Below, in pieces: positions 30,951-37,142 of a stretch of 64,000 bases of DNA. Every line of letters starts with the position of its first letter. Positions within the stretch are counted from its first letter, which is position 1. The notes under the pieces were generated by a model. That model searched no databases. It had not been told where the DNA came from and was given only the letters and a program-made list of their open reading frames with translations. Where the stretch lies: assembly GCF_900105675.1 (NCBI RefSeq), contig NZ_LT629786.1, positions 6,448,001-6,512,000 of the forward strand, given 5' to 3'. Source of the DNA: Pseudomonas synxantha (GTDB lineage: Bacteria > Pseudomonadota > Gammaproteobacteria > Pseudomonadales > Pseudomonadaceae). The translations under genes and the position numbers were made by a program.

Positions 30951-31640
30951 CTACCAGTAGGCTGGTTTTACGGCCGGTTTTTTTCGTGTAGGTACTCGGG
31001 AGGGGAGCTGATGATCCGCGAGTTCAACTTCGGTTACCACATGACGCATCCAATTCGCATACTGCTTAAGAGAGCCCGGTACCGTGCGCTGTACGCCTTC
31101 GCGGTGTGGAAGGATGACTCCTATGCGCAGATCCGCAAAGTCTTCCCGGATCGCTTTTAAGGCTGGCGTCATATCGGTATCGCCCGATACCAAGACGATT
31201 TGCTGCGTTCGCTGTTCAGGCGGTAGGAATGATTCACGAGCTGCGAGACGGTACATGCTTATAGCAATATGAACATCCGTTTCCTTCTCCTCTAATTTCC
31301 AAACCTCGACTTGATCGGCTCTGGAGGCAGGCGTGTCCTTGTTGACAAAGCGTGGGGCTTTGCCGGATTCAAGCTGATGGCGTCCGTAGAATACCTTTAC
31401 GTCACGCGCTATCAGGGCACGTAAATACGCGTCCTGGGCTTCTTTGGATTTGATGCCGCGACTGGCAAGGGATGGCTTGACGCCGGAGGTGAAGAAGCTG
31501 ATGGCGCTGACGAAGCTGTCTGGACATTCGACGCGAACGATATGGGATAGGAGGGACGGGAGGTCAAGCCATTTGTACGGAGTGCCAGCCAGCAGGCCGT
31601 AAAACAGGTTGTAACCGTCTACAAAGCAGGCTGTACGCAA
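30951..31640 (-). CDS. NYN-domain (DUF88/LabA-like) ribonuclease
   Basis: A 229-residue PIN-fold NYN protein. Acidic metal ligands are visible in CFVDGYNLFYG (residues 5-15), EKETDVHIAISMY and VLVSGDTDMTPAL, the expected set for an RNA-cleaving NYN nuclease. It starts with TTG at 31640 behind GGGGAC. It is the first gene of the accessory island. NYN proteins occur in tRNA/RNA turnover and in several phage-defence loci; which applies here is unknown. Confidence 0.85.
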   Translation of the reverse strand: MRTACFVDGYNLFYGLLAGTPYKWLDLPSLLSHIVRVECPDSFVSAISFFTSGVKPSLASRGIKSKEAQDAYLRALIARDVKVFYGRHQLESGKAPRFVNKDTPASRADQVEVWKLEEKETDVHIAISMYRLAARESFLPPEQRTQQIVLVSGDTDMTPALKAIREDFADLRIGVILPHREGVQRTVPGSLKQYANWMRHVVTEVELADHQLPSRVPTRKKPAVKPAYW

Positions 31641-32463: not shown

Positions 32464-32868
32464 CAGTCCATTCCGTGGACTGCGGCACCATCATCTGCAT
32501 CGCTGTTGCTGGTGACTTCGGTGTTTGTCACGCCGATTGTCACGAGGGGAAATGCCGCAAAGCCTTGTACGAGTTGGGCTGCAGCAACGGTAGGAGCGCC
32601 CGTCTCTTTCCGGAAGAAAGAGACGGGCGCAGGTTGGCGCAAGGAAATGGCCAAGCGGATAGGTTGCTGCAGGGCAGCTATGAAAGGGAATGAGTTGCCG
32701 CAGTGGGCACGCAGGGAAAAGTAGGCATCCATCACATCGCTGTGACTGTGCGAGCCGCCGGACGCTAATCGCACTTTGGGTGAACCACCATGGTGTGGCG
32801 TAGCCTTAAAGGTTCTGGCTACCTGGGTTGCTGTCAACGACAGCGCTTTGCCCGATCTTTTCTACGCC
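32464..32868. repeat. 405-bp direct repeat, copy 1
   Basis: Matches 33634-34038 over 405 positions without a gap, with 19 substitutions (95% identity). It contains a very stable hairpin, GCCCGTCTCTTTC (from 32599) with a five-base loop and its exact complement, conserved in both copies. A minus-strand reading frame of about 127 codons spans each copy, but about 15 of the 19 changes alter amino acids, so it does not behave like a conserved protein. Confidence 0.85.
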
Positions 32869-33579: not shown

Positions 33580-33634
33580 ACCACCATTATTGAAAACATG
33601 CTCTGACCCCTATTTTCCCTGACCCCTATTTTCC
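33571..33634. repeat. GGGGTCAGA inverted and tandem repeats
   Basis: AGGGGTCAGA (33571-33580) is inverted at 33602-33611, and the 16-base unit CTGACCCCTATTTTCC is tandem at 33603-33618 and 33619-33634. Sequence of this type often marks insertion hot spots next to transposase genes; none is present here. It abuts repeat copy 2. Confidence 0.6.
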
Positions 33635-34038
33635 AGTCCATTCCTTGGGCTGCGGCACCATCATCTGCATCGCTGTTGCTGGCGACTTCGGTGTTTGTCA
33701 CGCCGATTGTCACGAGGGGAAATGCCGCAAAGCCTTGTACGAGGTGGGCTGCAGCAGTGGTAGGAGCGCCCGTCTCTTTCCGGGAGAAAGAGACGGGCGC
33801 AGGTTGGCGCAATGAAATGGCCAAGCGAATAGGTTGCTGCAGGGCAGCTATGAAAGGGAATAAGTTGCCGCAGTGGGCACACTGGTAAAAGTAGGCATTC
33901 ATCACATCGCTGTGACCGTGCGAGCCGCCGGACGCTAATCGCGCTTTGGGTGAACCACCATGGTGTGGCGTAGCCTTAAAGGTTCTGGCTACCAGGGTTG
34001 CTCTCAACGACAGCGCTTTGCCCTATCTTTTCTACGCC
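33634..34038. repeat. 405-bp direct repeat, copy 2
   Basis: Second copy of the 32464-32868 repeat, 1,170 bases downstream in direct orientation, with the same 13-base-stem hairpin. It begins exactly at the end of the tandem CTGACCCCTATTTTCC units and ends 12 bases before the ImmA/IrrE stop. Confidence 0.85.
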
Positions 34039-34049
34039 GGTCTGATCAC

Positions 34050-34976
34050 TCAACCCCGCAGTTTCAGCTCCCTCACCCGTTTGATCACAAACTGTTCAAA
34101 CAGAGGGTGCGCGGTCACCACATCGTACATTTCATATTTTGTGAATGCTCGGATAACGGCTCCGCAAATTTCCGCCTCGTCGAGCGCTTTGTTTTTGCCG
34201 TAAGCAGCAGCAAGAATGCCGTTCATGTTCTGCAAATATCCCTGCGTGTCAGTGTCATGCAGGATTTGGTTGAAGACTTCCCGCCACGGCCTTTTGTCTA
34301 CTTCCCGTATGTCGCGGCCGATGAAGGTCCAGCTCATATAAAACTGGCCGTCTATTTCAAAGCTTTCGAAACGACAGTCTGTCTGAAAGGTTTCGCTGCT
34401 GACTTCGGCGTTTCGTTCTGGCGGGTACGGCGCCGTTTGGGATCTTCGCGTGCTGAGAACTCTGGATGTGCTGTCCACTTGTACGCAAATCACGGGCTGC
34501 GGGAGCGGGCGTAATATTTTATTGAATGTTGCTTCTTTGGATGCCCCAGCCTGGGTAAGGACCGAGCGGAAATAGTGCTCCACACTGGGTGCGGCTTTGT
34601 AGGCTTCAAGCAACCAGTCAGATGGCATCAACAGCTCTGCGGCAAAGCGATTGGCTTCGGTCTCCATTTGGCTGTAGGCAGCATCCACTTCCCGGTTCTC
34701 CAGGTGGGAGACGATTGTGCCTGTGTGCCATGGGATAACTACGTGCCCGATTTCATGGGCCAGCGTAAATTTTCGACGGGTAGCAGGTGCGCTTGAGTTG
34801 ATCAGGATGCGGGGCTTGGTTGCAGCACCAATACCAATGGTGATTCCGTCCACGCCGAACGGCAGTTCAAGGTATTCAAGCTCTCCATAGGCAGAGGCTA
34901 GCTGTTCTAGATCGTAAGGCGGTGTCAGCTTGCGGATGGCCAGGACGCGACTGGCCATTTTTTCTTCTGGGGTCAC
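34050..34976 (-). CDS. ImmA/IrrE-family metallo-endopeptidase
   Basis: A 308-residue protein with an N-terminal peptidase domain: zinc motif HEIGH in FTLAHEIGHVVIP (about residues 73-77) and the downstream Glu in ETEANRFAAELLMP. Such proteases cleave a partner regulator or antitoxin (ImmA cuts ImmR, IrrE cuts DdrO). The C-terminal half is family-unknown. Start GTG at 34976 overlaps the upstream stop by one base. Third gene of an operon headed by an E3-type nuclease domain. Confidence 0.88.
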   Translation of the reverse strand: MTPEEKMASRVLAIRKLTPPYDLEQLASAYGELEYLELPFGVDGITIGIGAATKPRILINSSAPATRRKFTLAHEIGHVVIPWHTGTIVSHLENREVDAAYSQMETEANRFAAELLMPSDWLLEAYKAAPSVEHYFRSVLTQAGASKEATFNKILRPLPQPVICVQVDSTSRVLSTRRSQTAPYPPERNAEVSSETFQTDCRFESFEIDGQFYMSWTFIGRDIREVDKRPWREVFNQILHDTDTQGYLQNMNGILAAAYGKNKALDEAEICGAVIRAFTKYEMYDVVTAHPLFEQFVIKRVRELKLRG

Positions 34977-35287
34977 TAGATCTTGCCCACGCTGCGTAGC
35001 CAGGCTTCGACTTTGGTCGCTTCAGCGACCGATCGTGCGCGTGCAGCAATCGCAAATTTGTCTTGATCGAGTTGGTCCTTAAGAGAGGTGCCGTACTTGT
35101 GGGCAGTCAATACAAAAGGTAAGACAGACGGGGTGGTTGACCACAGTTGGTACTCTTCCCACTTCATGCCCAGGTATTCATGCAGTTGCATGTCGGCACC
35201 TTGACGGCCCTCGTGCCAGTCCTCGACGAATCGGTCGATCTCTTCTTCCAGCACATCGCCTTTAAGGCAAAGCTCTACAAAATTCAT
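34976..35287 (-). CDS. Candidate antitoxin/immunity partner of the E3-type nuclease
   Basis: A 103-residue, slightly acidic, mostly helical protein. Notable is LHEYLGMKWEEYQLW in the middle. Start ATG at 35287 lies nine bases after the nuclease stop with GAGG between, and its stop overlaps the peptidase start. It has no resemblance that I can see to colicin E3 immunity proteins. Position suggests that it neutralises the nuclease and might be the substrate of the ImmA/IrrE protease; both ideas are inference. Confidence 0.7.
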   Translation of the reverse strand: MNFVELCLKGDVLEEEIDRFVEDWHEGRQGADMQLHEYLGMKWEEYQLWSTTPSVLPFVLTAHKYGTSLKDQLDQDKFAIAARARSVAEATKVEAWLRSVGKI

Positions 35288-35296
35288 ATGAACCTC

Positions 35297-35614
35297 TCAG
35301 TTCGGTTTGATCCTTCGTCCGCGGACGGCAGGTTTCAAAGCAAGCCCGGTTTCAGGGCAGACCGAACCCAGGTGAAAGCCACGTCGGTCGAAGACTTCAA
35401 ACTCGCCGTGAAGCGAATCCCATGAGTAGTATCGTTGCTCTACGGCATCAAAGTAATACTTACGGCCACCCTCTACATACGCGACTCTGAAACCGCTGAC
35501 AATAGAAGGATCAGGCCTAGGTTTGCCGCCCATCCAAGGTTCCCTTAATCCTGAAAACTGGTCCCGGCGTTTTCGCCAAGGAGGGGCCGGACTATACCGT
35601 AGCTGGATTGGCAT
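35297..35614 (-). CDS. Stand-alone colicin-E3-type 16S rRNase domain
   Basis: A roughly 105-residue protein whose second half, YYSWDSLHGEFEVFDRRG then FHLGSVCPETGLALKP, aligns with the cytotoxic domain of colicin E3. The catalytic triad spacing is kept: Asp, His three residues later, Glu four after that (DSLHGEFE), as D510/H513/E517 of ColE3, which cuts 16S rRNA in the decoding site. There is no receptor-binding or translocation domain, so it would act inside the producing cell. The exact start is uncertain (ATG 35614 or TTG 35656; neither has a good ribosome site). Confidence 0.8.
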   Translation of the reverse strand: MPIQLRYSPAPPWRKRRDQFSGLREPWMGGKPRPDPSIVSGFRVAYVEGGRKYYFDAVEQRYYSWDSLHGEFEVFDRRGFHLGSVCPETGLALKPAVRGRRIKPN

Positions 35615-35689
35615 GGGCCGCAGGCTGGAGTGCGGATTCGTTTCAAGAAATCGCAAACTGCATATGAGGGAGCCTGGGATCTCCAGAAC

Positions 35690-35718
35690 GAAAAAACCCG
35701 CCAGAAGGCGGGTTTTTC
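35690..35718. terminator. Bidirectional terminator
   Basis: AAACCCGCC / GGCGGGTTT hairpin with As before and Ts after, between the tRNA fragment and the E3-type nuclease operon. Confidence 0.75.
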
Positions 35719-35760
35719 GGGGGTTCCAGAGATTTTGAAAGCCTTCTCTGGAACCTTGTA

Positions 35761-35809
35761 TGGTGCCGGCACCAGGAGTCGAACCCGGGACCTACTGATT
35801 ACAAGTCAG
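35761..35809 (-). other. Prophage attachment site: 3' part of tRNA-Thr(UGU)
   Basis: Read on the minus strand these 49 bases are the 3' two-thirds of a tRNA-Thr: anticodon arm CTGACTTGTAATCAG, T arm GGTTCGACTCC and acceptor end GGTGCCGGCACCA. The 5' third is absent; prophage sequence follows instead. This is the duplicated core made by integration into the 3' end of the tRNA gene. The intact tRNA should be at the other prophage end, beyond the window. Confidence 0.85.
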
Positions 35810-35993: not shown

Positions 35994-37142
35994 TCAATCG
36001 CCAGACGGGTTCACGGTTGGAATGCTGAGGTCGTACACATCCATCATGGATTCGTCCTTGTGGCCAGAGGCTTGTTGCTTGTCTGCCCGGGTGCCCACCG
36101 TGTCGGTGATGCCCTTGCGCTTGAAGTCGTGCATCCCGAATCGCTGCTCTTCAGTTAGAACGCCTTTCTCGATCGCCTGCACGATCAGCCGCTGGAAGGC
36201 TGTATCAAGACCCGACTTCGACAACTGTCTGCCGGTGGCGGCAATAATCAGGAAGCGCTGGTCTGCCCGGATTGGTACAGGCACACGTTTTCGCTCCCAC
36301 GTCTCCGACCTGACGGCCTTGGCCGCATCCCATGCGGCGCGTAGCCGAGGCGTCCAGCGAACGATATTGTCCCGGCTACCCTTCCGGCGGTTGGTCAGCA
36401 CGCCCTCGGCGAGCTCGTTCTCGTCGGTTAGGGTGATTGTCTCGATACCGCGCAGACGGCAGAGATAGCCGATCTCCATCACATACCACAGGTAAGGTGA
36501 GCACGCCCCGGGCTGCCCGCTCTTGAGCTGGCCTTGCTGCTGCGCGAACCTGATCAGGTTGATCATCACCGTGTCGTCGGGCAGCCTCCGCTGCTTGCGC
36601 TCTTTGGGCGACTCGATGCCTTTTGCGGGGTTATCCTTCACGAACCCCCGGTTACGGCCCCACTGCATCACGCGGCGCAGGTAGCGCAGGGCGTGTGCGG
36701 CCTTCGATGGTTTCCCTTCCTGGGCGATCTTGTCGATTACCCGCTGGATCAGTGCCGGCGTGAACTTGAGTACGGCCAGCTCGCCCAATGGCTTGCCCAG
36801 TTTTGTCGGGAACGCCAGTAGCACGTCGCGGGAATAGACGTAGTCGTCGTGGGTTTTCTCGCTGAGCACCTTGTATTGGTCGCTCTTGTGGAATTCGTCG
36901 CACAGATACTGGAGGCTGTCGCGGTCTACGCCATTGCGCTCCTCGATGAGGCGGTGGAGCTCTGAAAGCGTCACATTGCCCGCGCACAGGTTCTGCCGCT
37001 GGCGCCGGCCGGCCTCGTTGAAATACAGGATGTACCAGCACCCCGCCCCGCGGTGGTCGAAATACACCGAGCGTGGCAGGGCCGCCTGGTCAATATGTCC
37101 AGGGATGTTCGGGTTGTGCTGGCGCTTCCTTCCTCGCTTCAT
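35994..37142 (-). CDS. int: Tyrosine-type phage integrase
   Basis: A 382-residue site-specific recombinase. The catalytic residues are visible in order: Arg in CRLRGIETI, Lys in RRKGSRDN, the His-x-x-Arg-like HDFKRKG, His in ASGHKDES and the nucleophile Tyr in DVYDLSIP near the C-terminus. It would integrate and excise the prophage at the tRNA-Thr site 185 bases away. The start overlaps the stop of the DUF4224 gene (ATGA). It is the last gene of the leftward operon. Confidence 0.95.
   Translation of the reverse strand: MKRGRKRQHNPNIPGHIDQAALPRSVYFDHRGAGCWYILYFNEAGRRQRQNLCAGNVTLSELHRLIEERNGVDRDSLQYLCDEFHKSDQYKVLSEKTHDDYVYSRDVLLAFPTKLGKPLGELAVLKFTPALIQRVIDKIAQEGKPSKAAHALRYLRRVMQWGRNRGFVKDNPAKGIESPKERKQRRLPDDTVMINLIRFAQQQGQLKSGQPGACSPYLWYVMEIGYLCRLRGIETITLTDENELAEGVLTNRRKGSRDNIVRWTPRLRAAWDAAKAVRSETWERKRVPVPIRADQRFLIIAATGRQLSKSGLDTAFQRLIVQAIEKGVLTEEQRFGMHDFKRKGITDTVGTRADKQQASGHKDESMMDVYDLSIPTVNPSGD

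Follow-up and report, generated by a model that had tools for sequence, protein, structure and literature searches.

Colicin E3 cuts 16S rRNA between A1493 and G1494. Its nuclease family has been placed in bacteriocins and contact-dependent effectors, according to the accessible text of a review (PMC9990079). In 2009, a three-component type of toxin–antitoxin system (TAS) was predicted, in which a COG2856 protease accompanies an Xre antitoxin and a RelE or PIN toxin (available portion of PMC2701414). Here, we describe a three-gene operon in a 64,000-nucleotide stretch of Pseudomonas synxantha (contig NZ_LT629786.1, positions 6,448,001 to 6,512,000; hereafter the window), which belongs to a Pseudomonas genome of 6.84 Mb. 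Judged by sequence comparison, the trio is real and conserved and most likely forms a three-gene toxin–antitoxin module, and we consider it probable that it combines an E3-type RNase with an acidic helical antitoxin and a releasing protease of the PprI/CapP type.

The three open reading frames (ORFs) all lie on the minus strand, at 35297–35656, 34976–35287 and 34050–34976. The first encodes up to 119 amino acids (aa) from a TTG start. The second, termed the partner (103 aa), starts 9 bases past the toxin stop, and the third, a 308-aa protease gene, has a GTG start that overlaps the partner stop by one base (TAGTG). A preliminary description of this DNA had proposed the same arrangement, and its gene positions, the 9-base gap and the shared base were all recovered.

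When compared with Pfam, the first ORF matched PF09000 (44.4 bits, cut-off 22) as the sole family above cut-off. In line with this, colicin E3 itself was retrieved from the PDB both with the single protein (phmmer, E 2.1e-5) and with a profile of the toxin family (E 2.8e-12), so that the E3 motif pointed out earlier is more than a chance resemblance. With regard to the length of the toxin, 16 of 26 related proteins are 78–79 aa long and begin at the position equal to Met42 of the 119-aa ORF; another nine have longer gene calls, and one (P0014, 74 aa) has a different start. Met42 is invariant across the 24 rows of an alignment that omits P0001, P0014 and P0017, and an AAGGGA lies 7 bases upstream of its ATG in the window, with similar motifs in most of the listed relatives. 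Because of these three features, the toxin is most likely a free-standing, 78-aa colicin-E3-type 16S rRNase domain encoded at 35297–35533 (minus strand), the longer frame to 35656 being probably untranslated. The position given for the first gene in the preliminary description therefore holds, while its extent to 35656 probably does not; its remark that import and receptor domains are missing fits a product of 78 aa (119 aa at most) with a single recognised family.

The proposed active site of colicin E3 comprises D55, H58 and E62, and H72 has also been pointed to (PMC3482391, in the sections available). Residues D39, H42, E46 and H54 of the 78-aa toxin align with colicin E3 and did not vary among 18 intact toxins picked for diversity; the stretch D39-x2-H42-x3-E46 is encoded at 35396–35419 (minus strand), and loss of the triad, which would have counted against the earlier proposal, was not observed among these 18. 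By analogy, we infer that the toxin cuts 16S rRNA between A1493 and G1494. Over its 78 residues, the toxin is identical in P. libanensis, P. khavaziana and one P. fluorescens strain. A Gordonia phage toxin (L087, 3653–4159) carries approximately 110 additional N-terminal residues ahead of the E3 domain and is annotated as HicA-like.

The toxin shares its nuclease family with bacteriocins, and solo toxin cassettes are known beside polymorphic toxins, as the consulted part of PMC3482391 describes, so the operon could be read as what is left of a bacteriocin or polymorphic toxin, or as a solo cassette of one, in which the partner would serve as immunity protein. Across 398 Pseudomonas genomes, 170 had some E3-domain match and, among the matches listed, most lay in open frames some 400 residues long, the size to be expected for bacteriocins; E3 domains of that kind are hence common in the genus. 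However, six genomes stand apart at 151.9–162.6 bits (one with an internal stop), the next match reaching only 50.7 bits, and a phylogenetic tree separated 22 standalone toxins from 25 bacteriocin-type domains by one branch (93/80; only 60 columns). The only weak match inspected, that of G074 (L056), grouped with the bacteriocin domains. Further, the toxin has its own start, a ribosome-binding-like site and no delivery domain, an intracellular protease accompanies the pair, and neither the partner nor its profile (up to E 1) matched any PDB chain by sequence, immunity proteins included. A bacteriocin-derived remnant is, in our view, very unlikely.

The partner profile matched 15 of the 398 Pseudomonas genomes; in nine, the match was at or near full length (E 2.6e-50 or lower), and these nine include all six genomes with a strong toxin match. 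In the other three (G155, G018 and G080), the partner was at or near full length and the toxin was shortened or gone. Relatives of the toxin thus occur with the partner rather than only as partnerless colicin fragments; the latter would have spoken against the preliminary description.

With the toxin profile, a pattern-based scan covering one genome per species yielded 21 loci. By profile search, the partner was next to the toxin in 20 of them, and all three genes were present in the same order in 19, with hosts including Pseudomonas, Azotobacter vinelandii, Citrobacter freundii, Comamonas, Methylococcaceae metagenome-assembled genomes and three Streptomyces. The two exceptions were an Azospirillum locus (L028) with only the toxin and an 87-aa partner, and a locus with a decayed toxin alone (L030). 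Within the 19 trio loci, toxins were broken in L017, L021 and L034, and protease frames were short in L025 and L032. The trio was also detected in predicted viral contigs (L004, L005, L098 and L102), and the three genes are therefore a conserved set in distant bacteria and in viral contigs. A gut phage record flagged as unverified (MT835780, L089) shows an ORF of the helix-turn-helix (HTH) type, followed by the toxin, the partner and a protease of 433 aa. Gordonia phage Phabuloso carries, one after another, genes for an immunity repressor, the E3-domain protein, a protein of 284 aa with the partner domain at its start, a metalloprotease, an HTH protein and an integrase. The record of this phage labels the pair as HicA/HicB-like, a label that we rejected: gp52 matched PF09000 and gp51 no family up to E 0.1. 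Among the window genes, no HicA or HicB Pfam domain was found.

All 17 intact toxins of the 21-locus scan had an adjoining partner and none lacked one; no intact toxin of the standalone family was met without it. Conversely, partners persist where toxins decay. We collected 61 distinct partner-domain sequences, 34 of them full length; next to these 34, the toxin was intact in 28 cases and broken or missing in six (L017, L021, L034, L076, L078 and L123), a count that is conditioned on finding the partner, which the 17 of 17 is not. In L123, the partner is the sole gene left whole. This gene association and loss asymmetry support well the toxin–antitoxin reading offered in the preliminary description. 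Both the pairing of two small, co-directional neighbours and the survival of the antitoxin gene after toxin loss are features of type II toxin–antitoxin systems.

The partner (34976–35287, minus strand) is predicted to be all-helical and is acidic. It matched no Pfam family above cut-off, and fold searches gave no significant match; accordingly, no HTH family could be assigned from Pfam or from a significant fold match, although an absent match is not proof. In the structural model (mean predicted local distance difference test, pLDDT, 85), a confidently predicted helical domain of approximately 66 residues precedes a less certain helical tail. Residues 1–66 (35090–35287, minus strand; mean pLDDT 90 or more per block) carry the negative charge of the protein and form the part shared with orphan phage proteins, while residues 67–103 (34979–35089, minus strand) form the tail. 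In each of the 20 loci compared, a basic toxin was paired with an acidic partner. The partner is predicted to neutralise the toxin by direct binding. The protein collection contained 655 partner relatives; among the 120 listed, none had a functional name, and one (P0013) carried PF09000, being a natural toxin–partner fusion in which the end of the toxin is missing. The N-terminal domain also occurs as an orphan, without tail or toxin, in at least eleven viral contigs (L103 and L105–L114). In L113, it lies just ahead of a long open frame of 1286 codons.

The third gene (34050–34976, minus strand) encodes a metalloprotease of the M78 (ImmA/IrrE) family, in agreement with the preliminary description. 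The protein matched PF06114 (60.1 bits, cut-off 22), and its HEIGH zinc motif (34743–34757, minus strand) lies inside the M78 domain. HEXXH was present in 14 of 14 proteases, with H74, E75 and H78 invariant. The predicted model shows the PprI/CapP fold beyond the peptidase core, and R67, located seven residues before the first HEXXH histidine as the counterpart of PprI Arg85 and compared with regard to a possible activation by single-stranded DNA, was likewise invariant in all 14, although it may be general in M78. Where an intact toxin and a tailed partner were present and the contig continued, the protease gene came next in 26 of 26 loci. Since these tailed partners all come with the protease, and the two tail-less partners beside intact toxins come without it, the tail is suggested to be what the protease recognises or cuts, even though this link depends on just two tail-less loci.

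The protease could instead act elsewhere, for example on a phage or host repressor, and be merely co-transferred with a two-component E3-type toxin–antitoxin pair. The Azospirillum locus (L028) and a predicted viral contig (L040), both with an intact toxin and a short tail-less partner, have no protease, so it is not essential to the pair. ImmA/IrrE proteases act, as known or predicted, on Xre repressors (as set out in the available portion of PMC2701414), and a repressor precedes the set in three phage loci (annotated in Phabuloso; by eye in L089 and L040). On the other hand, the protease start overlaps or abuts the partner stop in the listed three-gene proteobacterial loci, the gene is kept across very diverged hosts, and it is missing precisely in both loci with a tail-less partner. 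We regard a co-transferred protease as possible, with a lower probability than a protease that belongs to the module.

Other observations besides the protease-free pairs weigh against a three-gene module. Three of the 26 protease frames are faulty beside an intact toxin (L003, L025 and L032; one split by a frameshift and two short), and the M78 gene of the Gordonia phage is small and just below the Pfam cut-off (21.1 vs. 22), its partner having an unrelated extension of about 215 aa. In the 24-row toxin alignment, P0006 lacks both the catalytic glutamate and the second histidine; in the fused P0013, aspartate replaces the glutamate. Short, low-scoring E3 frames without this partner were also listed (e.g., G049, 63 aa; G169, 74 aa; G124, 70 aa), and other standalone E3 proteins may therefore exist. 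Finally, the three proteins show parallel pairwise distances across 18 loci (r 0.87–0.91; 0 of 2000 permutations as high), which may reflect joint inheritance alone.

Taken as a three-gene module, the operon would work as follows. The 78-aa relative of colicin E3 would remain in the cytoplasm, where it would be toxic by cutting 16S rRNA at the decoding centre and stopping translation, unless the N-terminal domain of the acidic helical antitoxin covers the basic RNase. The protease may sense a signal, e.g., single-stranded DNA that arises during phage attack or through DNA damage, and would then cut or unseat the partner, with the C-terminal tail as the likeliest place, thereby releasing the RNase. 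Growth arrest or abortive infection would be the outcome. By the predicted fold and co-occurrence of the protease, such a triggered release is plausible.

A 50-base 3' part of tRNA-Thr (35760–35809, minus strand) has an exact copy 39.8 kb away, at 6523566–6523615 of the genome (G000), within a complete tRNA-Thr, and a prophage integrase gene lies outside the operon at 35994–37142 (minus strand; PF22022, 27.5 bits, cut-off 27). Because of this exact repeat, we place a prophage between the tRNA-Thr and the operon; the earlier observation that the genes sit beside a prophage was right and is refined here by attachment-site (att) copies on both sides. In P. libanensis (L014), the operon comes immediately after tRNA-Thr, and the operon or a remnant of it was found shortly after tRNA-Thr(TGT) in ten distinct Pseudomonas loci (L014, L016, L017, L018, L021, L034, L041, L043, L044 and L078). 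Only the end of the tRNA was present in L015, and L020, L022 and L029 had no tRNA-Thr at this place. In Azotobacter, the operon lies among apparent prophage tail genes, as judged by eye.

Such phage and prophage positions, together with the tRNA-Thr site, would also suit a pure addiction module of prophages or islands, with no defence role and a protease that only tunes antitoxin stability. A protease of the PprI/CapP type is, however, not readily explained in this way, and chromosomal copies repeatedly lose the toxin and keep the partner, so we consider pure addiction improbable. Phages at the tRNA-Thr site (UFJF_PfPro, L088, 4001–4225; L097, 4001–4225; L001, 4476–4700) have, between integrase and att, a tail-less partner domain of 74 aa, which in L001 immediately precedes an intact toxin and partner; this orphan is possibly a phage-borne antidote. 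Extending the three-gene module, we put forward, tentatively and as a rather speculative elaboration, a phage-defence relay: on reading single-stranded DNA, a CapP/PprI-like protease would cut a new class of antitoxin and free a domesticated E3 nuclease on the cell's own ribosomes, and the tRNA-Thr phages would carry the tail-less orphan as a protease-proof antidote.

Further features of the window were recorded around the operon. A GC hairpin with A/T-rich arms, read from the sequence at 35687–35718 (no strand) between the tRNA fragment and the toxin, was absent from the list of the terminator scan and is perhaps the terminator of the tRNA side. A 300-base direct repeat (32464–32763 and 33634–33933, 95% identical), each copy with one 35-base palindrome-like block, lies on both sides of a 117-aa ORF. 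About 2.4 kb beyond the operon, an NYN-domain gene (30951–31640) matched the PADLOC model HEC-09 (E 8.4e-27).

No description of this module was found in the open-access literature searched, preprints excluded, in agreement with the earlier statement that no described system of this exact composition was known. If our reading is true, this would be, as far as searched, the first toxin–antitoxin module built on the colicin E3 nuclease, and what is a weapon against neighbours would have become a switch acting on the ribosomes of the cell itself. The antitoxin would represent a further family, one with no recognised relatives of known function, and the 2009 prediction of three components with an ImmA/IrrE protease would become directly testable with three small genes.

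Compared with the rRNase domain of colicin E3 and pyocin S6 (PF09000), the toxin described here has the nuclease family and catalytic residues in common; in contrast to them, it comprises 78 aa without receptor or translocation domain, forms a separate tree group, is paired with a partner that matches no known immunity protein by sequence, and has a protease attached. RelS-RelI likewise joins a 78-aa toxin that cuts 16S rRNA to a small antitoxin, but consists of two genes, and its toxin is RelE/ParE-like and cuts in the anti-Shine-Dalgarno region (PMC13284704, as far as its available text extends). CapH-CapP of the cyclic-oligonucleotide-based antiphage signalling system (CBASS) and DdrO-PprI of Deinococcus share the protease fold and the proposed principle that single-stranded DNA triggers the cleavage of a small partner (accessible sections of PMC10904395). 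Their substrate is a transcriptional repressor, whereas the partner here is a predicted direct protein antitoxin, and no cGAS/DncV-like nucleotidyltransferase (CD-NTase) was found in the operon or among the neighbouring proteins scanned; the PprI/CapP protease class would thus be tied to a direct ribosome-inactivating effector instead of a transcriptional repressor. In the COG2856 three-component TAS, as here, a toxin and an antitoxin come with an M78 protease thought to cut the antitoxin, and since that type was predicted earlier, the kind of system had been foreshadowed (PMC2701414, as above). In those systems, an Xre HTH protein acts as antitoxin and is often fused to the protease, and the toxins belong to RelE or PIN; in the present operon, an E3-type RNase (PF09000) is accompanied by a helical partner for which no HTH family was recognised and by a protease encoded separately. 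New to this foreshadowed kind are therefore the class of the toxin, the antitoxin itself and a protease encoded on its own.
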